Source of the DNA: Gluconobacter albidus
GTDB taxonomy: Bacteria; Pseudomonadota; Alphaproteobacteria; Acetobacterales; Acetobacteraceae
Assembly: GCF_002723915.1 (NCBI RefSeq)
Contig: NZ_BEWL01000012.1
Coordinates: 1-64,000 of the forward strand
Direction of reading: 5' to 3'
DNA length: 64,000 bases
Shown here: positions 29,314-63,951 of the stretch, piece by piece
How the letters are laid out: every line of letters begins with the position of its first letter
How positions within the stretch are numbered: the stretch's first letter is position 1
Position numbers and translations under genes: made by a program
The notes under the pieces: model-generated
Seen by the model: only the letters and a program-made list of their open reading frames with translations
Databases searched by the model: none
Told to the model about the DNA's origin: nothing

Positions 29314-29358
29314 TGGTGCGCCCTGATGGATTCGAACCATCGACCCACAGCTTAGAAG
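29314..29358 (-). other. attL: 3' half of tRNA-Arg(UCU), prophage/chromosome junction
   Basis: On the minus strand the sequence reads as a tRNA from its anticodon loop to CCA. It contains loop CTTCTAA (anticodon TCT), 3' anticodon strand GCTGT, a 5-base variable loop, a T arm with perfect stems GATGG/CCATC, acceptor strand AGGGCGC, discriminator A and an encoded CCA (29314-29316). The 5' anticodon strand should be ACAGC, but the sequence there is CACTC and no D arm follows. The tRNA is therefore cut at the anticodon loop. The 8-mer CTTAGAAG (29351-29358) recurs inverted at 29424-29431. A perfect 9-bp hairpin lies at 29369-29390. Confidence 0.88.
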
Positions 29359-30216
29359 GAGTGCGGTTTTCCTTATTTTTCAATAAGGAAGTTTGCAGAA
29401 CGATGCTAACTTTAGTTGATGTACTTCTAAGTTTTGCAAACTGCAAACCTCAGCGAAATAACGCTAAAGATTGCGGAAACCATCAATGCAATAGGAATTG
29501 ATGCGCTCAAAAACCCATCACCTATCGCAAAAGACCGCTACGATCTTAATTCCCTAAGCCGGAGTACAAATAGCTGCTTTAGAAGCATATAAGTTAATAA
29601 AAAACAAACTCTGTCTGTTTGTTCCTAAAATCTAAGAATCGTTTTTCTTCTTACATTTTCACAAAACCCATTTTGGTCACGGGAAGCGAACTGATTATCG
29701 CATCCAAAAAAAATATTTATCTTGAAAAAAACATGCGCCTGTGTATGATTTTGCTATCATGCTGTAGCCACGCCCACTCAATAAACTTGAGATAGTGATT
29801 TTCTTTTTTAATTATTGAAAAAGCTAACAATCATGCATTTCCCGTGCGCAGTATGCGCACTACAGCATGCAAGTTCTTTTTGCATTAATCGCAAAAAAGT
29901 GAGATTGCCCCCCTTAACATTCTCTGCATAAAGCGGGTTATATAAGACGCGGCTTGAGAACACCCGAAGGTTCTCCGGTAGATTTTGGTCTGCGAGAAAC
30001 GATTTGGGGCAAGTTAGCGTTAGGTATGTATGAATTATGAGAACATTCGGATCCTGTCCTGTTCGACACAGCAAGACTGAAAGGGAGAGAAGCTTAGTGA
30101 GCAGTTGGTAACGTTCATAACGTTATGAGAAACGTCTTCCGACGAAGACGATCCGTCTCCTATTGCATTCACTCAACTCTCCTCATCAAGCCTTGCGAAG
30201 AAAAGGTCACCCTCCC
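29359..30216. other. AT-rich, gene-poor attL-proximal stretch with inverted repeats
   Basis: No convincing gene is seen here; base composition is clearly more AT-rich than the rest. A 10-bp inverted pair CATGCTGTAG (29758-29767) and CTACAGCATG (29860-29869) encloses a perfect hairpin GTGCGC-agtat-GCGCAC (29844-29860). Another stem lies at 29876-29899. Two AACGTT copies lie at 30110-30115 and 30119-30124, and a perfect CGTCTTC/GAAGACG hairpin at 30133-30150. These could be integrase arm or operator sites, or a structured RNA; no family is recognised. Confidence 0.5.
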
Positions 30217-33004: not shown

Positions 33005-35851
33005 TCAGTAAAGATTGGGGATGACCGCGCCGATATGGAACGTGCAGGCCGGCAGGGATTCCGTGTCCAGCAGCAGCGCGATATGGGTCGCAAAGGCAGG
33101 CGCTCCGGCACCGGTCGTGTCCGTGGCCAGCGGATCCGGCGTGCCCGGCAGGCCCAGATAGCCGGGCGCGGTCCCGTGGCTCATCCAGTTGGCATATCCG
33201 GCCTTCGGGACGTGGACGTCGTCTTCACCGCAGAACAGATTGGCCGCGCCAAAGGTCGGCCGGCCGAACTGGTCCGAGCCCGTGATCTGGACGAAGAATG
33301 TCCGGAAATACAGCGTGACCCTGTCCGCGTCGTCGGTCGGCATGGTCGTGTTCGACGACACGGCCCCGGTCGAGAGATCATACGGGAAGAGGACTTTCAG
33401 CCCGATATTGCCCGTCTGGTACTTCTCGATCGGGATGCAGATAACGATCCGGTCGTTCCGGCCCTGTCCCTGCGTCTGAACCTTCAGGGATGCCGGATAG
33501 CCGTTGAACACATAGTCGGTGGACAGCGCAGCACTGGCGCCCTCGGACGTCCACTGGTCGATGCCGGCGACAGCGTCGGAATACAGACCGCCGATCAGAC
33601 CGACCCCGCCATTGAGCGGCAGGGCGCTTTTCGACTGAGGGATGAAGAACCCGGCCAGGCCAAGCGGGTCGGAGGTGAAATTGTTGCACGACCCGATATT
33701 GGAATTGCCGGTATTCAGCGAGCTGCGGATCTTGAGCTGGCCCGGTCCCCGCAGCGCCACCCCGTCCGGCCCGGTCAGATTGTAGATCTGTGTGTCGTGG
33801 AAGATCATTGTCGAGAGGTTGTGCTCAAGAAAGACAGGTGGTCCGCCGTACTTCTTTGAGTCACCCGCGCCGAGGAACATTCCGCCGAAGCATACGATCG
33901 CGCCGCTGCCGGTGCAGTGATACAGCGGCTTGTCCACACTCTTCGGCCCGTTCATTTCCATGTGGCAGCCATGGACCTCGATGCGGCCGGCATTGTTCGC
34001 AATACACTGATCGGAATAGTCGAGGGATGAGCCGTAGAACGTGAACTCGGCCCCGCCTGGATTGCTGATGATGCAGCCGGAGTTTCCGAAGCCCCCGCCA
34101 TAGAAGCGGAAGTTCTCGCCGGCATTGATGCTCCCCGGCAGGAACTGGAAGCACAATCCGCAGGCTCCGACGCCAAAGTCCCAGTATTCCGAGAGGTACG
34201 CGCCGCTGCCGAAGTTCATCCCGATCTGGAAGTTCTCGACCGAGCCGGTGCCGAAATTCTGGATGGTGCCGTCCGTGTTCTCATACGAATTGTACCAGAC
34301 CCCGGTGACACCAGAATCAGTGCCTGGGCCCACCAGCGTGAAGCCTTCAGTGATGACCGGCAGCGGGTAGTGCAGCGTGGCCCCATCGCGCGTTGAGAGG
34401 ATGGCCGAGTTCCGGTTGAGCTTCGTGACCGAGAACTTCGTGAATTCGACATTCAGATAGCCAGAGATCGACACCACCACGAAAGACGAACTGTCCTCGG
34501 GGACGTAGAGCGGAACCGACATGGATCCCGTCACCGGCACGTCAGACAGGTTGGAAATGATCTTGCTCGGCCCCTGCATGATCCAGGGCGATGGACCCGC
34601 ACCAGGGCTTGATCCGTTGACGCCCATGCCGAGGCTTCCCGGCTGCCCGTTCAGCATGGCGTAAGAGCCGCCGAGAGTGCAGGAATACTCGATCTCGAAG
34701 ACATAAGCGCCCTTGGGGAGGGTCAGCTTCTGTCCGAACTGGTTCCAGTGTCCCGTGGCCGTCGACATGTTGTTGTTGTCGGATGCGGCGATTGCGGCGG
34801 TCGTGTTCGAGATCGTGTACGTCCCGACCGTGCCCGTCCCGGTGCCCAGGCCGGTGATCGTCGTGTCCGTGCCCAGCTTGAACTGCGAATCATACAGCCG
34901 GTCGCCGACCTTGAGAGCGGGGAGGCCCGTCATCGCCGTGACGGTCAGAACGCCGTTCGAGACAGATCCTGTGATCTGCGTCGCGTTCGGCGGATCCGTG
35001 TAAACCGCCTTGCCCTGCTGGAACACGACGTCCGTGCACTGGGCCGGGGAATAGATATTGGCGTTGACGAACGCACCGCTGGCATTGGCCGTCTGGAAGG
35101 TCGGATCGTCGATATGCTCCACGACCGTAGTCACGGCCTTCAGGGCACTGAAATCCAGCGTGGAGTTCGTGAAGGTCCCGAAGGACGTTCCCGAGATCCA
35201 GATCATGGGGTTGTCGTCCAGCGCCACCGCATCATTGCACATGATGTAATGGAGCGCGGGAGAATTGATGCCCTTGCCGGAATAGCAGACGGTCTGGATG
35301 GCGACGAAGTCGATCTCCTGGTCCAGACTGTAGGCGATCGGAAAGACCGCCTGCGCCTCGGCCAGTGTCGGGAAAAAGCCGGACAGCCGGTGACTGTTGC
35401 CGTCCCCGACCGCGCCGAACCACTGCGGATTGAGACCGCCCTGATAGACGCGCCGGTAGGTGGTGCCCCCGGCCGTGACGATGATGGTCCCGAAGTCAGG
35501 CGTATCGGCAGTCGCGGCGCGGATGAAAATGCCAGCCGCTCCGCGCGTCAGATCCGTCCCGTCCCAGGACGTCAGCAGGATCGCAGCCGGCGACGTCTTG
35601 AGCGCCCGGAACTGCGCGATGGACGAGACGTTCGCCCGGACGCTGGAGGCCACGATGTCCGCGACGGTTGCGCCGTCGAGCGTACTGGCGGCATCAATCG
35701 TGCCGGACTGGATGGACTGGCGGATCGACTGACCGCCATCTGCATCCACCTTGTTGCCCAGGGCAGCGGCGACCTGCGTGGATTTGACCAGATTGGCCTT
35801 GTTCCCCGTGTCGACGACAGACTTCCAGGGCGGCGTGAAATTCTGGACCAT
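33005..35851 (-). CDS. large tailspike/fibre-like protein
   Basis: This 948-residue protein has an N-terminal helical segment followed by long Gly/Ser/Asn-rich strands that suggest a right-handed beta-helix, as in tailspikes and pectate-lyase folds. The stretch GGLNPQWFGAVGDG near residue 150 is the common entry motif of phage beta-helix depolymerases. Such proteins bind or degrade surface polysaccharide. Its ATG overlaps the lysozyme stop by one base (TGATG). Enzyme activity is inferred, not shown. Confidence 0.75.
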   Translation of the reverse strand: MVQNFTPPWKSVVDTGNKANLVKSTQVAAALGNKVDADGGQSIRQSIQSGTIDAASTLDGATVADIVASSVRANVSSIAQFRALKTSPAAILLTSWDGTDLTRGAAGIFIRAATADTPDFGTIIVTAGGTTYRRVYQGGLNPQWFGAVGDGNSHRLSGFFPTLAEAQAVFPIAYSLDQEIDFVAIQTVCYSGKGINSPALHYIMCNDAVALDDNPMIWISGTSFGTFTNSTLDFSALKAVTTVVEHIDDPTFQTANASGAFVNANIYSPAQCTDVVFQQGKAVYTDPPNATQITGSVSNGVLTVTAMTGLPALKVGDRLYDSQFKLGTDTTITGLGTGTGTVGTYTISNTTAAIAASDNNNMSTATGHWNQFGQKLTLPKGAYVFEIEYSCTLGGSYAMLNGQPGSLGMGVNGSSPGAGPSPWIMQGPSKIISNLSDVPVTGSMSVPLYVPEDSSSFVVVSISGYLNVEFTKFSVTKLNRNSAILSTRDGATLHYPLPVITEGFTLVGPGTDSGVTGVWYNSYENTDGTIQNFGTGSVENFQIGMNFGSGAYLSEYWDFGVGACGLCFQFLPGSINAGENFRFYGGGFGNSGCIISNPGGAEFTFYGSSLDYSDQCIANNAGRIEVHGCHMEMNGPKSVDKPLYHCTGSGAIVCFGGMFLGAGDSKKYGGPPVFLEHNLSTMIFHDTQIYNLTGPDGVALRGPGQLKIRSSLNTGNSNIGSCNNFTSDPLGLAGFFIPQSKSALPLNGGVGLIGGLYSDAVAGIDQWTSEGASAALSTDYVFNGYPASLKVQTQGQGRNDRIVICIPIEKYQTGNIGLKVLFPYDLSTGAVSSNTTMPTDDADRVTLYFRTFFVQITGSDQFGRPTFGAANLFCGEDDVHVPKAGYANWMSHGTAPGYLGLPGTPDPLATDTTGAGAPAFATHIALLLDTESLPACTFHIGAVIPNLY

Positions 35852-36354
35852 CAGACGTATCCGTTCTTCAGTGTCATGGGAGTTGCGAGGCCGAGAAAGA
35901 TGGCGCGCTCACGGGCACGGCGATTTTTCAGGCCGGCCAGCTCGACCAGATGGCCGCGCACGGTGGCCTTGTCCCAGCGCAGCAGCTCGTCAGCCGCGCC
36001 GTCATAGTCACCGGCATTCAGCTTGTGCAGCAGGGTCGAGCTTTCGACGGCGGGTGTCCCGACATTGTACTGCCAGGACAGCAGGGCCGCGCGCTGGACG
36101 TCCGACAATGCCACCCGGACCAGGCGGGACAGCGCTGCATCCAGCGCTGTTACCATCCGGAGCAGGAGACTGCTGGCGGTTACCTCATCAATGGAAGCGG
36201 TCCGGGCCGTGACGGGCTGCCCGTTGGCCAGCCAGCGGCTGCCATAGCCGATCGTCCAGTACCCGGCCGGACAGACATAGGGCGATGCGCAAAAGCCCTC
36301 GAACCCCGGCCGCCGCAGCAGCGCCGTGGCCAGAGTGATGGCAGTGTCATGCAT
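35851..36354 (-). CDS. phage lysozyme (GH24 endolysin)
   Basis: The 167-residue endolysin cleaves peptidoglycan between MurNAc and GlcNAc. The catalytic pattern E-8-D/C-5-T is present as E19, C28 and T34, followed by IGYGS. There is no N-terminal signal-anchor helix, so release presumably needs a holin. The gene follows the T7-ATG hairpin at 36365-36396 and overlaps the spike gene by one base. Confidence 0.9.
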   Translation of the reverse strand: MHDTAITLATALLRRPGFEGFCASPYVCPAGYWTIGYGSRWLANGQPVTARTASIDEVTASSLLLRMVTALDAALSRLVRVALSDVQRAALLSWQYNVGTPAVESSTLLHKLNAGDYDGAADELLRWDKATVRGHLVELAGLKNRRARERAIFLGLATPMTLKNGYV

Positions 36355-36396: not shown

Positions 36397-36527
36397 GGTA
36401 GGGGAGAGGTTGGTAGGGTGGCTTACGCCTCATCTGAGATATGGCGAGACCAGTCAGACTATCTCCGATAGCAGACCATTTCCGGTTTTTCTTGACGCAG
36501 GGGACAGGAGCGGCCAGCGGTGAAGGC

Positions 36528-37790
36528 ATGGATACAATCAGCCTCCTCGCTCTGCTTCTGACTCTCTCGGCGGGGTTCAGCATTCTCAATCACCACACGT
36601 TTCGCCTTCCTGTGACGATCGGTGTGCTGGTCTTCTCATTACTGGCTTCCCTGCTGGTCATGATCCTGAATCCATTAATGCCGTCCTATGACCTTCAGGC
36701 TCTCCCGCGATCTGTTCTCGGAGCGATTAATCTTCCCACTGCCCTTCTGAATGGTGCGCTGTCCCTGCTTCTGTTTGCCGGGGCCACGCAGGTGGATGTC
36801 CGACATCTGCGCGCAAAGCTTGCCTCCGTGGCTGCTCTCTCTGTTCTGGGAACCGTTTTGGCTGTTGCCTTTCTGGCAATCGCGGCATGGTACGTTTTCC
36901 CTCTGTTAGGTCATACCATTCCTTTTACGTGGTGCATCGTCCTTGGCGCCATCCTCGCACCGACTGACCCCGTCTCGGTGGTCGGTATGCTGAAGCGTCT
37001 CGGATTGCCAGGACCGATTCAGGCCGTTTTCGCAGGGGAGAGTCTGTTTAATGACGGCGTGGGAGTGGTGATTTTTGGCGTCACGATAGGACTGGCAACC
37101 GGGGATAGTCAGGGAGTAACCGCCTCCGAGATTGCTCTCAGCTTTTGTCGTGAGGCGATTGGTGGGGGTCTACTAGGCGCACTGACCGGATGGATCGCAC
37201 TCCGTGTGCTTAAGGGGCAGCGGGATCAGCATATCGATCTGTTGACGTCACTGGCTCTTGCGACCGGAACCTTTAGTATTGCAAACCAGTTTGGCATGTC
37301 GGGTGCGATTGCTGTCGTGGTGGCGGGACTGTGCTTCGGAACAAGCTATAGCCGTTCCGTTTTCGATGAGGCATCCCGCAAGGAACTCGACGTCGCATGG
37401 ACACTTATTGATGAAGTGCTGAACGTCCTGCTGTTCATGCTGATTGGATTTGAAATCCTAGAAATCAAACCGCATGTGTTTACGATCTTGGCAACCCTTG
37501 CCGTGATTCCGCTGTCCGTTGCCGTGCGGGCATTGAGCGTGCTGTTTTCAACGCTTCCGATTCACCTTAGGCAATGGGAGCGAGGCCGTGTTCTTGGTAT
37601 CCTGACCTGGGGAGGTCTGCGTGGCGGCATCTCGGTTTCGCTGGCGCTTGGATTGCCGCCCGGAAACTTGCGCGAACTGCTGCTGCCGGTTTGCTACGGC
37701 GTAGTCGTGTTTACGATCATTGTGCAGGGACTAACCATGGAGCGGGTTGCCCGAAAACTCTATCCGTCCTCTACGCTTGGGCCGCAATAA
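36528..37790 (+). CDS. CPA1-type cation/proton antiporter, prophage moron
   Basis: This 420-residue protein has about 12 membrane helices and CPA1 (NhaP/NHE-like) signatures: LAPTDPV with D147 and GESLFNDGVGVV with the paired N175-D176 that exchange Na+ or K+ for H+. A GGLRGGISVSLALGLP segment lies near the C terminus. ATG 36528 (MDTISLLALLL) is chosen because it starts at the first helix; a frame from 36441 would add a polar leader. It is the only plus-strand gene within the late block and separates the lysozyme from other lysis and tail genes, so it looks like acquired cargo. Confidence 0.87.
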   Translation: MDTISLLALLLTLSAGFSILNHHTFRLPVTIGVLVFSLLASLLVMILNPLMPSYDLQALPRSVLGAINLPTALLNGALSLLLFAGATQVDVRHLRAKLASVAALSVLGTVLAVAFLAIAAWYVFPLLGHTIPFTWCIVLGAILAPTDPVSVVGMLKRLGLPGPIQAVFAGESLFNDGVGVVIFGVTIGLATGDSQGVTASEIALSFCREAIGGGLLGALTGWIALRVLKGQRDQHIDLLTSLALATGTFSIANQFGMSGAIAVVVAGLCFGTSYSRSVFDEASRKELDVAWTLIDEVLNVLLFMLIGFEILEIKPHVFTILATLAVIPLSVAVRALSVLFSTLPIHLRQWERGRVLGILTWGGLRGGISVSLALGLPPGNLRELLLPVCYGVVVFTIIVQGLTMERVARKLYPSSTLGPQ

Positions 37791-41832: not shown

Positions 41833-44800
41833 TCATGCTGCCTTTCCGGTGGTGGATTTCATGCTCTGCATGCGGGTCTCACTCAGCTGCTTGGTGGCCA
41901 GATCGACCAGCTGCGCCAGCGTCGTGTTGAGCGTGTCGGTGGACGTCTTCAGCGCCTCTTTCATGACGGAGGCCGTCAGATCGTCCGTACCGATGCTCCC
42001 CAGGCTCTGGAGTGCCTGCATGACGCGGGCATAGTCCTGGGCATAGGCCGTGCCTGACCCGTTGAAGGTCTTGCTCTGGGCCAGCAGGGTCTGCATGTCG
42101 CCCTGCATGGCCTGAAGCGCCGTGAAGCTCCCGCCCTGGGCTGCCGTCAGATCGGTCGTGAAGTTGTCATTCGCGACCTTGTACTGATCGGCGGCCGACA
42201 GCGGAGAGGCATCCGACGTGGCCAGACCCGCGCCATAGGTCTCCAGGCTGGACATGACGCTTTCAGCGCTTTGCAGCGCCTGGTCATTGTACTGCTGCTG
42301 GATCTTCAGGCGCTCGGCCGAGAGGGTTTTCTCCAGGTCGGCCGACTGGCTGATATATTCCTGCTGGGACGTGTAGGCGTCCCCGAGGAAGTTCTTCCAG
42401 TTGTCCGCCAGCTGCTGGCGCTGCTGGTCCGCACTGACATCGAAGTTCGTCAGCGCGGCCCCTTCATCATCGCCCGTGGCCGTCTGGTACCGCGCCTGAA
42501 CCGACAGATCGCTCTGTCGCAGCGTGTCCAGCTGGGAGGCAAAGCCCTGGTCGTAAAGCGACTGGTACTTCGCATTCAGCTGGGTACCGTCCAGCCCGTA
42601 CTGACTGGCCTGCGAGGCGGCTGCCTCATAGGTCTGTTTCAGCGCGGCCATCTGATCCACCCAGGACTGCTGTCCCGAGACCGTGGCCTTGAGCAGCCCC
42701 GGCATCGTCGTGTCGACGAAGGTCGTGATGGTGGAGATCTGGGTCTGGAGATCCGACGTCGACAGCGATTTGCCATCGAGCGCCGTGTCCAAAGCCGTTT
42801 TCAGATCCCCGCTGGCTTTCGTGAAACTGCCGACCGTGACCGTACCGTCCGAATTGAACTTCGAAACGGCAACGCCCAGCTGGTCGACCGTGTCGGCCAT
42901 GGTCTTCAGGTTGGCGATCGCCGTTGCATAATCCGAGACGGATGTTGCATCGCTCGGCAGCCCCTGTTGCAGGGCCTGCTGGAATGTGGCGTCCGACGTG
43001 CTGTAGGTCGCCTGTTTCAGCAGATCCGTCAGCGAGACGGACTGGAGGGACTTGTCCTTGTTGTTCTTGTCATCCCGGACCGTGCCCAGCAGCCCGCCAT
43101 TGCCGCCGCCAATCGTGACCCCGTCCGTGGACAGGACCTTGTTGAACGACGCGATGTCGGATTTGAGCTGCTCCGTGATCTGATCGGTCTGGGCCTGGTT
43201 CCAGGTCTTGCCAAGCGACAGCGAGCCTCCCGTCGTCATGACCTGGTCGATCGTGTACGGGTTTTTCTTGTGCCCGAAGAGACCACCCATAAGCCCGCCC
43301 AGACCGCCGCCGATCAGACCGCCCAGCATGGTGCCGATGACTGGAATGAACGATCCGGCCGCAGCACCTGCCGCCGCTCCGACGCCGCTTCCGATCATGC
43401 CGTTGGTCTTTGTCCCACCGCCGATGCCGGACAAAGCCGAGCCGAGCCCGAAACCCCCGCCGATCCCGCCAAGGAGGTTGCCCACCGTGGCCGTGCCGAA
43501 CAGGTTGGTCTTGAGGCCGGAGGACAGCCAGGACGTGGAGCCGCCAGAGCTGCCTGTTACCGTCAGGGGATTCCATCCCCAGCCACCAGAGTCCTGGCTG
43601 ATCGCGGTCGCTCCCGCACTCATCGAAGACGAAGAGCTGCCCGACAGAATGGACGAGACATCGCCCAGGGTCGTGCGGCTCTTGCCGTCGATCGCGTTCA
43701 GCAGCGGGTTGATCAGGGCCAGCTTGGCGATCACGGAGATCAGCTGGCTTTCCACGCCCTGCATGGCCGACTTGAACGTCACCCCGCCATTCGAGGCGTT
43801 GACCAGGGCCTGCGTGAAGCTGCTCGACAGCGTGTCGGCTGCCGAAGAGATATCGCTGGTCAGTTCGTTCAGCGTGTCCTGCTGCTTCTGGTAAGCGTTC
43901 GTAGCCGTCTGGATCGCCGCGACGTTCTCCAGATCGGTCTGTGAGGCCTTGGATGTCAGGCCTCTGCCGCTTTCAAGAAGCGCGTTGCGTTCTTTGAGAA
44001 CGGCCATCTGCACGGAAACAGCGTCGGAGTTCTGTCCGATCGCATCCGTCTCTGCCTTGATGTAGCTGAGATCTAGGCTCTGGCCATAAAGTTTTCCAGC
44101 GGTCGAAAGGTCCCCCTGAACCTCGGCCGCCCGTCTCATGGCATCAGTTTTTTCCTGTATCTGTCGTGTCTGCTCCTTCTCCTTGGGGAGAGACGTATCC
44201 TGAACGTTCTCATAGGCTTCCACGGAGCGCAGATAATCGTCCAGGCTGCCCTTGCTGGCATCATATCCTTTGAGCACATTCTCCTGAGCCGCCGTCTTAC
44301 GGTTCATGGCCTCGATGCCGCTGTTGAACTCGCCTGTCAGGATCTGCTGTTCGTTTGATTCCGCCTTCAGGAGCTGCGCTGCCGTGGCATGGGCGTAACC
44401 CAGCTTGCGGGCGGCTTCTTCGGTCTGCTGGTCGACCTGAACCATGGCTTTCTGCGCCGCCGTGCCAGCCCAGGCCGCATCCGTCGCCTGCTGCTGCTGA
44501 TGTGCCAGCTCCTGCATCGGATCGCGCAGATCGTTCAGCGCGGCCTTATGCGTCATCAGGCGATCGGTCAGAGCCTGCGTTTTTGCATCATAGTCAGCGT
44601 CGGTGATGACGCCTGCCTGACGCTGCTTGTCCAGTTCTGCCTGCGCATCAGTCATCTGCTTGATGGCGTTGACTTGATCCGACCTCTTGGAAGTCGTCGA
44701 GCTGTCCGGGGTCTTCAGGGCATCGTCGATCTTGCCCTGCATGGCCGCGAGGGTCGTCGCACCATAGGTTTTCCCGCCCGTGACCTGCTGGGCATAGTCC

Positions 44801-46503
44801 TGCACGGACTGCGGGACCGTGGTTTTCCCCTGAAGGTATTTGTCGACGTTCCCTTCGCCCCAGTTATAGGCCATGGCGACCAGCTGCTCGTTGCCGCTGT
44901 ATTTGGAATACAGCCGGACCAGCAGACGCTCGGCCGCCGTGACGTTGCCGGTCGGATCCGTCAGGTCGTTGCCGGCTGCATTCGCCGGCATGACCTGCAT
45001 GCCGCCGATCGCGCCAGCCGAGGAGGTCACGACCGCGCCACTGCGGTCATACTGCCCCGTCGTGCTTTCGACTGGCTGGATCCGATGTGCCAGGGAGATG
45101 ACGTCGGAGTTCGCGCCGATCTGCTGGCCGACCGTATCAATCAGCCCTGACATGCCCGAGCTGGTGCCCTGCTGGATCTGCTGTTGCTGGGCCTCATAGG
45201 CGACATGGGCCGGCTGGAAACTGTCCATCCAGCCCTTGAGTTCTTTGACCTTGTTGATCAGGTTTGTCAGGCCGTCGATCGTTTTGGCGGTCTGCGCGAC
45301 CAGGAAGCCCCCGACCTTGTTACCGAAACTCTCGACGCCTTCCATCGGACCGGCCCAGGCATCCTTGAGATTGCGGACCGACTGCTGAAACGGCGTCAGC
45401 CCCTGATCCACAGCGCCGCGCGTGGCCGATTCAAGCTGGCCCATGAGCAGCTGCCAGGCCTGCATCCGGTTGCCGCTGTCCTGAAGATCCTTGACCTGAC
45501 TGACCAGCCCCTGATGAACGCCCAGCAGACCCTTGTCGGCAAAGTCCTGCGCCGCCTTGGCCGGGTCCGTGTAGGCGTCTGCCATTTCCTTGGCAGCTTC
45601 AGGCACGGTCTCGCCCATGACTTCCGCCAGATCCCGTGCTTCCTGCGTCAGCGACGTCAGGCTGGAACTGTCGACCGTGGGCAGGGCCGCAAAGGTCGTG
45701 GTCACGCTGCGGCTGTCAGCGAGGGATAGACCGCTGCTGGTCGAGAGCCGCCGGGAGGCGGATTCCGCCGCGCTGGCCATTGCCGTGTAATCATCGCGGG
45801 TTGCGCGCAGGTGCTGCGACAGCGTCGCCAGTTGCTCCTGCTCTGCTTCGGCCGCAGACCCGATTTTATAGACGGAAGCTGCCGCCGCTGCACCTGCGAC
45901 AGCCAGACCGGCAGGGCCGATCATCCATCCTGCGACAGTTTCAAGAGCCCCACCAAAACCGCCCATGATCTGGATCATGTTCGGCAGCTGATAGAACGCA
46001 GCCTGGAAGGCGGATCCGCCTGCCATCACCTGGTCAAAGAACTTGTGCGCTTCGTCCGCCAGGATGCCCATCTTCTGGCTGGAGAGACCAGCTTTCTGGC
46101 CCGTTTCCTCCAGGGCATCGCCTGCCTTTTTGGCGGCCTGCACGGCATCCGCATGAGTCTGCGTCAGCTTCTGGACTTTGGCAGCCTGTGCATCATAGGA
46201 CCGTGTCGCCTGCTCCTGTGTAATCTCGCCGCGACGGACACTCTCCGCCAGAGTATCCGCTGAAGTAACAAGGTTGTTCTGAGCTTTTTCGAGCGCATTG
46301 GCGCTCTTGGTTACGGCGTCCCAGGTATTGACCAGACCTGTCCCGCTTTTGGTGCTGCGCTGGATCTTGGAATCTGTGATTTCAGCACTGTCCCCAACGC
46401 GATCGAGACCATCCGCTACAGCATCAAGCGCAGCGGCATCAGCCTGGGCTGAAGAGGCGATCTGGCTGCGGTAGGAAACTTCGAGCTCTTCAACCGTCGC
46501 CAT
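41833..46503 (-). CDS. tape measure protein with lytic transglycosylase domain
   Basis: The longest gene of the prophage (1556 residues) encodes the tail-length ruler. The N-terminal 470 residues are helical and coiled-coil. A soluble lytic transglycosylase (SLT) domain lies at about 473-560, with a likely catalytic glutamate in QPVES, GAIGGMQVMP and YNWGEGN. A Gly-rich hydrophobic region (about 1000-1080) may insert into the inner membrane on DNA entry. The C terminus is again helical. The family rule of about 1.5 angstrom per residue would predict a tail near 230 nm (inference). Confidence 0.92.
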   Translation of the reverse strand: MATVEELEVSYRSQIASSAQADAAALDAVADGLDRVGDSAEITDSKIQRSTKSGTGLVNTWDAVTKSANALEKAQNNLVTSADTLAESVRRGEITQEQATRSYDAQAAKVQKLTQTHADAVQAAKKAGDALEETGQKAGLSSQKMGILADEAHKFFDQVMAGGSAFQAAFYQLPNMIQIMGGFGGALETVAGWMIGPAGLAVAGAAAAASVYKIGSAAEAEQEQLATLSQHLRATRDDYTAMASAAESASRRLSTSSGLSLADSRSVTTTFAALPTVDSSSLTSLTQEARDLAEVMGETVPEAAKEMADAYTDPAKAAQDFADKGLLGVHQGLVSQVKDLQDSGNRMQAWQLLMGQLESATRGAVDQGLTPFQQSVRNLKDAWAGPMEGVESFGNKVGGFLVAQTAKTIDGLTNLINKVKELKGWMDSFQPAHVAYEAQQQQIQQGTSSGMSGLIDTVGQQIGANSDVISLAHRIQPVESTTGQYDRSGAVVTSSAGAIGGMQVMPANAAGNDLTDPTGNVTAAERLLVRLYSKYSGNEQLVAMAYNWGEGNVDKYLQGKTTVPQSVQDYAQQVTGGKTYGATTLAAMQGKIDDALKTPDSSTTSKRSDQVNAIKQMTDAQAELDKQRQAGVITDADYDAKTQALTDRLMTHKAALNDLRDPMQELAHQQQQATDAAWAGTAAQKAMVQVDQQTEEAARKLGYAHATAAQLLKAESNEQQILTGEFNSGIEAMNRKTAAQENVLKGYDASKGSLDDYLRSVEAYENVQDTSLPKEKEQTRQIQEKTDAMRRAAEVQGDLSTAGKLYGQSLDLSYIKAETDAIGQNSDAVSVQMAVLKERNALLESGRGLTSKASQTDLENVAAIQTATNAYQKQQDTLNELTSDISSAADTLSSSFTQALVNASNGGVTFKSAMQGVESQLISVIAKLALINPLLNAIDGKSRTTLGDVSSILSGSSSSSMSAGATAISQDSGGWGWNPLTVTGSSGGSTSWLSSGLKTNLFGTATVGNLLGGIGGGFGLGSALSGIGGGTKTNGMIGSGVGAAAGAAAGSFIPVIGTMLGGLIGGGLGGLMGGLFGHKKNPYTIDQVMTTGGSLSLGKTWNQAQTDQITEQLKSDIASFNKVLSTDGVTIGGGNGGLLGTVRDDKNNKDKSLQSVSLTDLLKQATYSTSDATFQQALQQGLPSDATSVSDYATAIANLKTMADTVDQLGVAVSKFNSDGTVTVGSFTKASGDLKTALDTALDGKSLSTSDLQTQISTITTFVDTTMPGLLKATVSGQQSWVDQMAALKQTYEAAASQASQYGLDGTQLNAKYQSLYDQGFASQLDTLRQSDLSVQARYQTATGDDEGAALTNFDVSADQQRQQLADNWKNFLGDAYTSQQEYISQSADLEKTLSAERLKIQQQYNDQALQSAESVMSSLETYGAGLATSDASPLSAADQYKVANDNFTTDLTAAQGGSFTALQAMQGDMQTLLAQSKTFNGSGTAYAQDYARVMQALQSLGSIGTDDLTASVMKEALKTSTDTLNTTLAQLVDLATKQLSETRMQSMKSTTGKAA

Positions 46504-61542: not shown

Positions 61543-62087
61543 ACGTCACCACCAGTCGCGGCCGAGGAATGTTCACCCCGGCCGCTATCGTCCATCCTGC
61601 GTTTTCCACAACCAACAGGAGACGATTCTTGAAACAGAAAATTGAAGAACTGGAAGATCGCGTTCGCAAGCTTGAACAGGCGCTTGAGAAAGTGAAGAAA
61701 TTTGTAAAAATGCCGAAAGATACTTCTGATGAAGAGCTGAAATACGACGGGATGTAAAACATCATTCAGGTCGTAAATCAGATCCCGCATCTGCCAGGAC
61801 GAGGTCAGCTTGAACTTGTCCTGGGAGAACGCGATCTTTACCGCCGTGACATTCCGATCATGGCGCATCTTTTCGCGTTCAATCTTGCGCCAGGTACGCA
61901 GATACAGAACGGTCGAGATCAAACAGACAACTGACCCCGAGCTGCCAGTCTGGATTTCTGAGAGTGATTTCAGAACCTGCCGATAGTCGTCCTCATACTG
62001 ATTGCCTTGGAATGCCTTACTCCGGACACCATCCGGGTGACGGGCGCGCAGACGCAGTTTACGGATGACCGCATGGATGATTTTCAT
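61539..62087 (-). CDS. hypothetical protein between Cro-like and CII-like genes
   Basis: The 182-residue frame is bracketed by ATGA overlaps at both ends, which supports it. Residues 1-115 look protein-like, with a hydrophobic stretch (CLISTVLYLRTW). The last third is Phe/Leu-rich and antisense to a small plus-strand coiled-coil frame, so its 3' part may not be under protein selection. Function unknown. Confidence 0.55.
   Translation of the reverse strand: MKIIHAVIRKLRLRARHPDGVRSKAFQGNQYEDDYRQVLKSLSEIQTGSSGSVVCLISTVLYLRTWRKIEREKMRHDRNVTAVKIAFSQDKFKLTSSWQMRDLIYDLNDVLHPVVFQLFIRSIFRHFYKFLHFLKRLFKLANAIFQFFNFLFQESSPVGCGKRRMDDSGRGEHSSAATGGDV
61629..61757 (+). CDS. possible 42-residue coiled-coil protein, antisense to neighbour
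   Basis: TTG 61629 has a nearby aggag element. The frame encodes a strong Lys/Glu/Leu heptad coil (KIEELEDRVRKLEQALEKV). It is entirely antisense to the 182-residue frame on the minus strand. Only one of the two is likely to be under protein selection. Confidence 0.3.
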   Translation: MKQKIEELEDRVRKLEQALEKVKKFVKMPKDTSDEELKYDGM

Positions 62088-62287
62088 GCTGCTTTCTCCA
62101 CTTCACCGCACTCCTGCAACGCTTGGATTAGGCGCCCAACCACCGCGAGTGTCGGAGAAGTTTCTCCGGCTTTCCAGCGAGTGAAAGTGCTTCGAGCTAC
62201 CTGAGCCCTCCGACACAGATCACCAATCGCAATGCCCCTTTCGCGGGCATCGCTTTCGATATCAGCAGGAGACGGAAGATTTTTCAT
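62084..62287 (-). CDS. Cro-like repressor
   Basis: The 67-residue protein has a helix-turn-helix at about 21-47 (IGDLCRRAQVARSTFTRWKAG). It is divergent from the CI-type repressor, with shared operators between. The candidate -10 box CATAAT (62299-62294) ends 6 bases before the ATG, so the transcript would be leaderless. A longer frame to 62527 would run over the operators and is rejected. Confidence 0.82.
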   Translation of the reverse strand: MKNLPSPADIESDARERGIAIGDLCRRAQVARSTFTRWKAGETSPTLAVVGRLIQALQECGEVEKAA

Positions 62288-62293
62288 ACGTCC

Positions 62294-62370
62294 ATTATGC
62301 GCAATAATGCAAACATAACAAGCGCAATTTTGCGCAGGGATTTCAATCTCACGATGTGCGAAAATGCGCA
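62294..62370. promoter_or_regulatory. divergent operator/promoter region of the lysogeny switch
   Basis: Three sites of the GCGCA-N4-TGCGC family lie here: 62299-62312 (right half degenerate), 62322-62335 (perfect halves) and 62356-62369 (left half degenerate). The Cro-side promoter is TTGTTA (62321-62316) and CATAAT (62299-62294), 16 bp apart, with the first operator in the spacer. The third operator ends two bases before the repressor ATG. Confidence 0.75.
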
Positions 62371-62371
62371 T

Positions 62372-63076
62372 ATGAGCAGCGTTAATGATTCTGTCCGGTC
62401 CAGCCAGCAGGCTTACATTCGAGCTATCAGAGATCGAACTGGAAAATCCTTCTCTGATATCGCTCGTAGTGTCGGCGTTGCACCGAGTACTATTGTGCGC
62501 TTCATGAATGACGGAAGTGCCAGTCATAGTCTTAGCGCGACCACGATGGCACGCTTAGAAAAAGAATTTGGCGCTTCAGGACATCAAGATGTTCGCTTAG
62601 TGCCTTCCAACTCGTGTGAATTAGTGCCCATGGTTGGAAAAATACAAGCTGGAGTTTGGCAATCTGGCGACATGTTCTCACAGGAAGGCTATTCCGAATA
62701 TATATCAATTACCCCAGATGATAGATATCCCGGCATAAAACGATGGGCTTTTAGAGTTCAGGGAGACTCTATGGACCTCTTATATCCGTCCGGAACCATC
62801 GTTATTGCAATTTCATACTGCGATATTGCGCGGCCGCCGAAAACTGGAGACAAGGTGATTGCCATACGGCAGGAAAATGGCCTCGAAGAAGCGACCCTGA
62901 AAGAAATAGAGATTAAAGATGACGGGCGCGTTGTTTTGTGGCCCAGGAGTACAAACCCTGAATTCTCACAGGCCATAGTCATTCCTCCATCTGGAGTAAA
63001 TCCGTTTCCGGATCACGGATGCAACGAGGAGTACAGAATATCTGGAATGGTAATTCAAAGCATACGCAGGGAATGA
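62372..63076 (+). CDS. LexA/CI-type self-cleaving phage repressor
   Basis: The 234-residue protein has an N-terminal HTH (SFSDIARSVGVAPSTIVRFM, about 26-45) and a C-terminal S24 peptidase domain. Cleavage site A93-G94, nucleophile S133 (QGDSMD) and general-base K161 (GDKV) are all present, so it should be inactivated by RecA during the SOS response. Starts at 62354 or 62297 would run over the operators. The stop overlaps the next gene (ATGA), so the two are co-expressed in lysogens. Confidence 0.9.
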   Translation: MSSVNDSVRSSQQAYIRAIRDRTGKSFSDIARSVGVAPSTIVRFMNDGSASHSLSATTMARLEKEFGASGHQDVRLVPSNSCELVPMVGKIQAGVWQSGDMFSQEGYSEYISITPDDRYPGIKRWAFRVQGDSMDLLYPSGTIVIAISYCDIARPPKTGDKVIAIRQENGLEEATLKEIEIKDDGRVVLWPRSTNPEFSQAIVIPPSGVNPFPDHGCNEEYRISGMVIQSIRRE

Positions 63077-63906
63077 TGATAAAGTCGTTAATTGCATGTG
63101 CATTTTTAATGATGCCAATAGTAGCTTATTCTGATGATCTTTCCAAAGTTCATATAAATGGAAAAACTTTTGGTGTTTACGGAAATTACAACCAAGGGTT
63201 CGCATACACATTTAATGGACATGCATTCACGCCCGATGATTATTCGTTCTCTTCAAAAATCTTTAAGATAATTGAGGGCGACGGCAAGACTTATGTAATC
63301 ACTGTCGACCAAGATGATGGCTCGGCATCTGCACCTCAATACCGGGCATTCGATGTTACGGGAGATGCTTTTATCCCAAGCGCGCTTATTGGCCAGGGGA
63401 TTGGCGACCATCTTGACGGCGCCTGGTCTGTTATAGGGGGAGATGCTGTTGCAACGATTCAAAAGGACGACGGCAGCTCTGCCACTACATTTCACATTCG
63501 CGATGGTCTTGTTCATATCCTGACACAAGGCAGGGACAATAGCTTATCAGGCCCGTCAACACCTCCGGGCGGGGATTACGCGGCCTTTGTCGCTGGTATG
63601 CGTCTTAAAGAAGCGTTTCATTCTAAGGCTATCAATCCAATCTTGAGGAAAGCGTTCCCAGAGCCTGTTTATTCTGATGTATTCAAGTTGGCAGAAGAAG
63701 ATTTCGGCAGTGCATTCCAAGCGGGAAATCAGGGCAGTTTCGCGTTCCTTAGCCAGCCTCACGACTCTCGCGACCGTTATATCGCAATCGCAATTCAACC
63801 AAATGGCACTGCGGTGGCTATCTTCTCTTCCAATGGACATCACGAAGTCACCTATGGAAATCCAGATCCTTTAATCAAAATGAGATTGCAACGCGAAATC
63901 CCTTGA
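63073..63906 (+). CDS. exported lysogen protein with Ivy-like C-terminal region
   Basis: A signal peptide (about 1-20) precedes a 257-residue periplasmic protein. Residues 21-165 are beta-rich and unrecognised. The last ~95 residues align by eye with the chromosomal Ivy gene of this window: SQPHDS (227-232) sits where Ivy has CRQHDC, followed by an AIAIQPNGTAVAIF strand and YGNPDP (261-266) in place of FLGEPD. Both loop cysteines are serines. It overlaps the repressor stop by four bases and is followed by operator copies. Confidence 0.65.
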   Translation: MMIKSLIACAFLMMPIVAYSDDLSKVHINGKTFGVYGNYNQGFAYTFNGHAFTPDDYSFSSKIFKIIEGDGKTYVITVDQDDGSASAPQYRAFDVTGDAFIPSALIGQGIGDHLDGAWSVIGGDAVATIQKDDGSSATTFHIRDGLVHILTQGRDNSLSGPSTPPGGDYAAFVAGMRLKEAFHSKAINPILRKAFPEPVYSDVFKLAEEDFGSAFQAGNQGSFAFLSQPHDSRDRYIAIAIQPNGTAVAIFSSNGHHEVTYGNPDPLIKMRLQREIP

Positions 63907-63946
63907 TGCGCATTTTTGCGCTTGATCTAAATTAGCATTTTTGCGC
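63907..63946. promoter_or_regulatory. second cluster of repressor-type operators
   Basis: GCGCA-tttt-TGCGC is at 63908-63921 (perfect halves) and TAGCA-tttt-TGCGC at 63933-63946. They are 25 bp apart, match those between cro and cI, and probably control genes to the right of the window. Confidence 0.7.
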
Positions 63947-63951
63947 AAAGT

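Follow-up and report, generated by a model that had tools for sequence, protein, structure and literature searches.

A repressor-coupled, exported-looking prophage protein of Gluconobacter albidus with a cysteine-free Ivy-like C-terminal segment

The window analysed here, a stretch of 64,000 nucleotides from contig NZ_BEWL01000012.1 of Gluconobacter albidus, enters a prophage of about 37.8 kb, both ends of which are marked by a 42-bp repeat. The attL copy, which repeats the end of a tRNA-Arg gene, is at 29318..29359, and the second copy (67106-67147, same contig, outside the window) falls within the tRNA-Arg gene at 67102-67178, which adjoins an integrase gene. With these borders a chromosomal gene for a true Ivy lysozyme inhibitor (P0001, 28855..29271, plus strand; PF08816, E 2.8e-20), which served as our comparison sequence, lies just outside the prophage; 46 bases separate its end from attL. 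Among the 26 genus genomes searched, 19 contain an Ivy match. The prophage itself encodes a tape measure protein (41833..46503, minus strand; Pfam TMP_2, 9.2e-18) with an SLT transglycosylase domain at about 44821-45030 (4e-12), and an endolysin of the Phage_lysozyme family (35851..36354, minus strand; Pfam 5.5e-34), thus peptidoglycan-cleaving enzymes exist in the circle of this phage. Next to the endolysin gene, and opposite in direction to the tail genes, lies a Na+/H+ exchanger gene (36441-37790, plus strand; Pfam 6.2e-47), possibly a moron.

The lysogeny region contains a CI-type repressor gene (62372..63076, plus strand) coding for HTH and Peptidase_S24 domains (Pfam S24, E 9.9e-10; PHROG transcriptional repressor, 2e-16) and a divergent gene of the Cro/C1 HTH type (62084..62281, minus strand; Pfam HTH_26, E 9.6e-5, 23 bits at a cut-off of 22). 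The repressor gene is followed on the same strand by P0002 (63073..63906), a cargo gene for an exported-looking protein of 277 amino acids. Its frame has 277 open codons, and the chance of such a stop-free run, calculated from its own base composition, is about 3e-7. The earlier note on this DNA had described a four-base overlap between the two genes, and the sequence bears this out: the ATG at 63073 and the repressor stop codon TGA (63074-63076) form an ATGA junction. On reading the sequence a second in-frame ATG is found at 63076, where TGATG would give a one-base overlap with the repressor stop; it appears equally plausible as a start, and its spacing to the AGGG is better. The G+C contents of the repressor gene (0.472) and of P0002 (0.458) are similar, the value for the window is 0.601.

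Judged by eye, the N-terminus of P0002, MMIKSLIACAFLMMPIVAYS followed by DD, resembles a Sec signal peptide (putatively residues 1-20, 63073..63132, plus strand). The sole cysteine of the protein, C9, lies inside this putative signal peptide and none follows it. For the N-terminal part (residues 22-160, 63136..63552, plus strand) sequence searches found no convincing relatives; a low-confidence single-sequence model has strands there, and for P0002 as a protein the single-sequence AF2 model was useless.

The two genes are bracketed by sites which resemble operators. A palindrome scan for approximately TGCGCA-N4-TGCGCA (up to three mismatches, both strands counted) yielded 17 matches in the window, where 5.8 would be expected; the shuffle control applies to the window sites. 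Ten of the 17 matches belong to five sites around the repressor gene and P0002. Three sites are on the left (62298..62313, 62321..62336 and 62355..62370) and two on the right (63907..63922 and 63932..63947). They flank exactly the repressor gene and P0002, the first right site starting immediately behind the stop codon of P0002. This bracketing, together with the ATGA junction, suggests that P0002 is co-expressed with the repressor in the lysogen.

It is informative to compare this arrangement with related repressor loci. A search of 397 genomes of the family found matches to the repressor at E<=1e-10 in 41, and among the 26 genomes of the genus there was no further near-full-length match. Five loci, in genomes G316, G353, G302 and G366 and on contig C6 of the same genome, carry repressors that are 42-58 percent identical over at least 200 residues; these loci were taken to be prophages. 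The six loci in which the operator layout was looked at comprise the window, the locus on C6 and four (L009-L012) of the 23 listed repressor loci; L013 (39 percent identity over 198 residues) belongs to the 19 listed loci beyond this comparison, and for eight of the 23 our filter yielded no repressor frame. In all six loci three operator-like sites, 23 and 34 bp apart, precede the repressor gene, and the cargo ends with a pair of sites, of which the first, TGCGCATTTTTGCGCT, is identical in all six and the second follows 23-25 bp on. The distance from the repressor stop to the right pair varies from about 0.77 to 2.65 kb and each locus has different genes there; in the window P0002 is alone. 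Conserved borders with differing content, i.e. a variable cargo slot behind the repressor gene, were thus found in 6/6 loci examined.

Two of the relatives carry cargo from families that can modify the envelope (Pfam has the label 'LPS biosynthesis' here): a GT25 glycosyltransferase (Pfam, 1.3e-15) in one, and in another an acyltransferase (Acyl_transf_3, 4.1e-27) accompanied by an opposing P63C gene (3.9e-29). One relative encodes a RhuM-family protein (Pfam 1.6e-75; PADLOC PDC-S05, 1.6e-108), and in another a small gene with weak similarity to HSDR_N accompanies the gene for a PDC-S42 protein (3e-130); the three cargo frames of G366 had no family match. PADLOC matches were obtained for two of the nine cargo proteins scanned, the 'PDC' entries being, as we understand them, candidates for phage defence and not proven systems. 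The contents of the slots point to lysogenic defence or surface change. In all five relatives the G+C content of the first cargo gene is below that of its own repressor gene (0.264-0.504 vs 0.463-0.585). The tight repressor-cargo junction occurs only in the window and in G316 of the six loci; the remaining four have the start of their first cargo frame 44-81 positions past the last base of the repressor gene. Two small slot genes, L135 5454-6002 and L136 5409-5978, look alike by eye and neither matches PADLOC; the HSDR_N match of the former (E 0.024) does not reach the cut-off. The repressor of the C6 locus (L038, C6:151518-152201) is 57 percent identical to that of the window and its right operator-like 16-mer is the same, which makes cross-regulation between the two resident prophages possible.

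The C-terminal part of P0002 had been noted, from an alignment by eye, to resemble the host Ivy. Direct comparison did not bear this out for P0001 itself, as BLASTP of P0001 against P0002 found nothing in that region. What did stand is a likeness over 56 residues to short-spaced Ivy proteins, supported by profile statistics with controls. The Pfam Ivy model PF08816 (cut-off 21 bits) gave no match at E<=10 with either the whole protein or its C-terminal part, an Ivy model run on the bacterium's own genome did not recover P0002, and among BLASTP comparisons of nine Ivy proteins with P0002 the best relevant match, to L042, had an E value of 0.012.

For the profile comparisons, Ivy proteins were gathered from plasmid records and whole genomes by use of Ivy models, and 35 were aligned; these are not independent sequences, nine coming from one genome family (f178) and P0001 being among them. 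The weak Ivy loci L043 and L044 were kept out of the pool. Four loci that P0001 brought in, L045-L048, appear to be chance matches, a judgement made by reading L047. With the profile of all 35 members P0002 scored 7.3 bits and came second to an unrelated control, L014_2049_2831, at 10.6 bits. The control codes for an exported-looking protein of 260 amino acids and is located soon after a more distant repressor; it was the top non-Ivy control with the 35-member profile and was not among the top controls listed for the short-type profile.

The short-type profile was built from the 17 of the 35 Ivy sequences which have short spacing after the loop. This subset was picked after two of its members had been seen to align nearly gap-free with P0002, therefore the figures obtained with it must be somewhat inflated. 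P0002 scored 10.7 bits, and its C-terminal 117 amino acids alone 12.6 bits. In the set of 1,728 ORFs the sequence next after P0002 reached 5.9 bits; the 35 sequences ranked above P0002 at E<=1e-3 were taken to be the Ivy proteins. Out of 20,000 shuffles not one attained the score of P0002 (the program reported 13,708 of them, the best at 6.3 bits). When twelve random half-size profiles were used, P0002 was first with nine and second with three among 1,692 non-Ivy controls (5.5-14.1 bits), which means that no single member carries the short-type result. In hhalign P0002 matched the 17-member set with a probability of 69, a P value of 4.4e-5 and a score of 32.0, above all 400 controls, the best of which scored 23.0.

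The profile alignment covers residues 220-275 (63730..63897, plus strand), the last 56 residues matched, with two one-residue gaps, and the elements follow in colinear order: a strand, the QPHD loop, a strand, a PNG turn, a strand, GNPD (starting at residue 262) and the last helix. An AF2 model of P0002 built on an Ivy alignment (A3, from which L111 was omitted as being near L110) had Ivy structures as its sole strong PDB matches; since it was made on an Ivy alignment, we do not count it as independent support. Taken together, the comparisons indicate that the C-terminal resemblance to Ivy is probably right, with the short-spaced subtype as its proper reference.

The details of the loop are less favorable than had been claimed. 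SQPHDS (residues 227-232, 63751..63768, plus strand) indeed corresponds to the C-x-x-x-x-C loop of Ivy; in it the serines S227 and S232 stand where 35/35 aligned Ivy sequences have cysteine. The distance from loop to G-x-P, which had been described as the same in both proteins, proved to be shorter in P0002 (29 residues) than in P0001 (33 residues); a spacing of 29 does occur in 9/35 of the aligned sequences. The argument built on the kept histidine-aspartate pair is half right: H230 and D231 are present, but these are positions that vary in the family (H in 21/35, D in 18/35) whereas the cysteines are constant in 35/35. P0002 retains the variable part of the loop and loses the constant one, and the argument is weaker for it. 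Ivy models had been used to collect the 35 sequences, a procedure that could overlook relatives lacking the cysteines. Across the 35 aligned loops the two cysteines are the sole constant positions, and variants beyond CKPHDC include CETADTC, CESQNC, CKPNEC, CKVNEC and CKPTGC (L060-L063, L069, L074, L075, L077-L080). A passage of PMC4262234 states that mutagenesis shows the CKPHDC loop to be essential and that 30 Ivy members conserve it strictly, five others having CExxDxC. All of the Ivy sequences in our first alignment (7/7, alignment A1) have a tryptophan ahead of the sheet. It is absent from P0002, residues 161-277 having no tryptophan at all; it is not universal, as L070 and L071, judged by eye, lack it too.

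Compared with Ivy of PF08816 (PDB 4ps6, 1uuz, 1gpq, 1xs0), and above all with its short-spaced type, P0002 is alike in the order of elements, loop length, the P-H-D triplet, the terminal helix and, for the nine sequences mentioned, the 29-residue spacing. It differs in the missing loop cysteines and tryptophan, in falling below Pfam detection, in having some 140 N-terminal residues ahead of the Ivy-like part, and in its coupling to a phage repressor. Because the loop cysteines and the tryptophan are missing, we call this part of P0002 a diverged Ivy-like domain and do not file it as Ivy.

Searches with P0002 found no relatives in phage records, plasmid records or genome contigs; in viral contigs there was one matching contig, identical in that gene. 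In the 397 family genomes P0002 found itself and three weak matches (E 0.003-0.005), taken as chance, and in the 26 genus genomes nothing but itself. There was no match to PADLOC models or PDB sequences, and a single NCBIfam match (E 0.03) was far under the cut-off. The two halves searched singly at E<=10 gave matches of E 2 to 9 at best. Since these searches located P0002 in no more than this prophage and a single viral contig, conservation says nothing on its function. Ivy proteins were likewise sought in phages: P0001 as query found no Ivy in phage records, the Ivy of L053 gave one match there (E 0.4), and a scan of viral contigs with A2 found none. The host Ivy P0001 does match phrog_13619, a phage family of unknown function, at 1.3e-11, whereas P0002 has no PHROG match at E<=1. 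The match of P0001 suggests that phrog_13619 is Ivy-related, in which case phage-borne Ivy relatives are not new as such.

What could such a protein do for a dormant phage? The best single explanation that we can offer, and we offer it tentatively, is superinfection exclusion through inhibition of an incoming peptidoglycan-cleaving enzyme. P0002 would be a cargo protein with a defence role, made while the temperate phage is dormant, as the position of its gene between the repressor gene and the right operator-like sites would imply, and exported to the periplasm. There the cysteine-free Ivy-like domain would present its QPHD loop to an enzyme of the lysozyme fold and block it, by analogy with Ivy. 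The likeliest target would be a transglycosylase or lysozyme carried on the tail of a heteroimmune phage as it arrives, and the DNA of that phage would then fail to enter; the tape measure and the endolysin of the prophage itself represent the two candidate target types. The N-terminal part might, more speculatively, anchor or position the inhibitor. An excerpt of PMC7677548 describes how in Ivy-type inhibitors a loop between antiparallel strands goes into the active site of the enzyme, and PMC10139938 reports E. coli Ivy as a weak in vitro inhibitor of the transglycosylases MltA and MltB and cites in vitro inhibition of P. aeruginosa MltB by that organism's own Ivy proteins. The exclusion idea is strengthened by the SLT domain in the prophage's own tape measure and by the cargo of the five related slots, two of which match PADLOC families and two of which belong to potentially envelope-modifying families. 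What we count against this explanation is the loss of both cysteines of a loop described as essential, the absence of the Ivy tryptophan, the weak transglycosylase inhibition by E. coli Ivy, the failure of P0002 to match a PADLOC model and the higher rank of an unrelated control with the 35-member profile.

The same losses are the main argument for a rather unlikely alternative, in which the Ivy fold was retained with a dead active loop, and P0002 binds a receptor, an envelope component or a phage tail tip, excluding phages or altering the surface without muramidase inhibition. The large N-terminal part, whose fold was not recognised, and the GT25 and acyltransferase cargoes in two of the five other slots would agree with this; on the other hand, P0002 has kept the classical P-H-D triplet although the family tolerates other residues there. 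We think it unlikely that P0002 serves the host, as a second Ivy-like inhibitor shielding the wall of the lysogen from autolysins or external lysozymes. Such a function would accord with the known roles of the Ivy family, and Ivy and MliC go up in E. coli under transglycosylase stress, according to PMC10139938, but the chromosome already has an Ivy gene, as do most of the genus genomes searched, P0002 is coupled to a phage repressor, and the other slots carry cargo that points more to defence or surface change. That the resemblance to Ivy is a matter of chance or convergence, P0002 being an unrelated exported moron, is in our view quite improbable: the Pfam and BLASTP results, the 35-member ranking, the late choice of the subset and the dependence of the AF2 model would allow it, and the shuffle, half-size-profile and hhalign controls and the colinearity from the first strand through G-x-P to the last helix speak against it.

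Returning to exclusion by enzyme inhibition, several known systems are similar in one respect or another. Spackle of T4 is, according to PMC7677548, a periplasmic inhibitor of the gp5 tail lysozyme. The proposed logic is alike, with a phage supplying the periplasm with an inhibitor against the tail enzyme of a newly arriving phage, and in that sense Spackle is the functional precedent for P0002; it differs, by the same account, in being an alpha-helical bundle with an allosteric mode of action and an early product of infected cells. The placement of P0002 recalls lambda rexAB, exclusion genes which according to a passage of PMC12894663 lie just 3' of the CI repressor gene, whereas RexAB consists of a cytosolic sensor and a membrane effector and P0002 is a single exported-looking protein. 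Two exported exclusion proteins of temperate phages are mentioned in an excerpt of PMC3952083: Ltp of TP-J34, which is encoded in the lysogeny module and prevents DNA injection, and the Glo protein from a V. cholerae phage, said to be soluble and located in the periplasm. P0002 is likened to them by description, not by sequence, and Ltp differs in being a lipoprotein with a Gram-positive host. As for the slot, the defence hotspots of P2 and P4, as portrayed in PMC9122126, similarly hold variable antiviral genes at a fixed place in related phages; those are other phages, and the borders of the slot described here are the repressor gene and the right operator-like sites.

The fullest form of our proposal, possible and at this stage doubtful, is that the phage recruited a disulfide-free Ivy fold as a lysogen-expressed exclusion protein against the wall-cutting enzyme of rival tails, and that its gene occupies a defence slot bordered by the repressor gene and the right operators, the slots of sister phages holding other candidate defence genes. 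We found no paper joining Ivy or lysozyme inhibitors with prophages and superinfection in open-licence full texts, which is weak evidence of absence. With phage Ivy relatives as such already known, what we regard as new is a cysteine-free relative that occupies a variable slot and is coupled to the repressor. The known Ivy inhibitors are encoded on bacterial chromosomes or plasmids and have been linked to resistance to animal lysozyme or to the control of autolysins. If the proposal is true, co-expression of an Ivy-like domain with a phage repressor would put the fold to a new purpose, comparable to what T4 Spackle achieves with a different fold, and the disulfide loop of Ivy would be dispensable. 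The slot is of immediate use in itself, the genes between this repressor and the right operator-like sites in related prophages being ranked candidates for phage defence.
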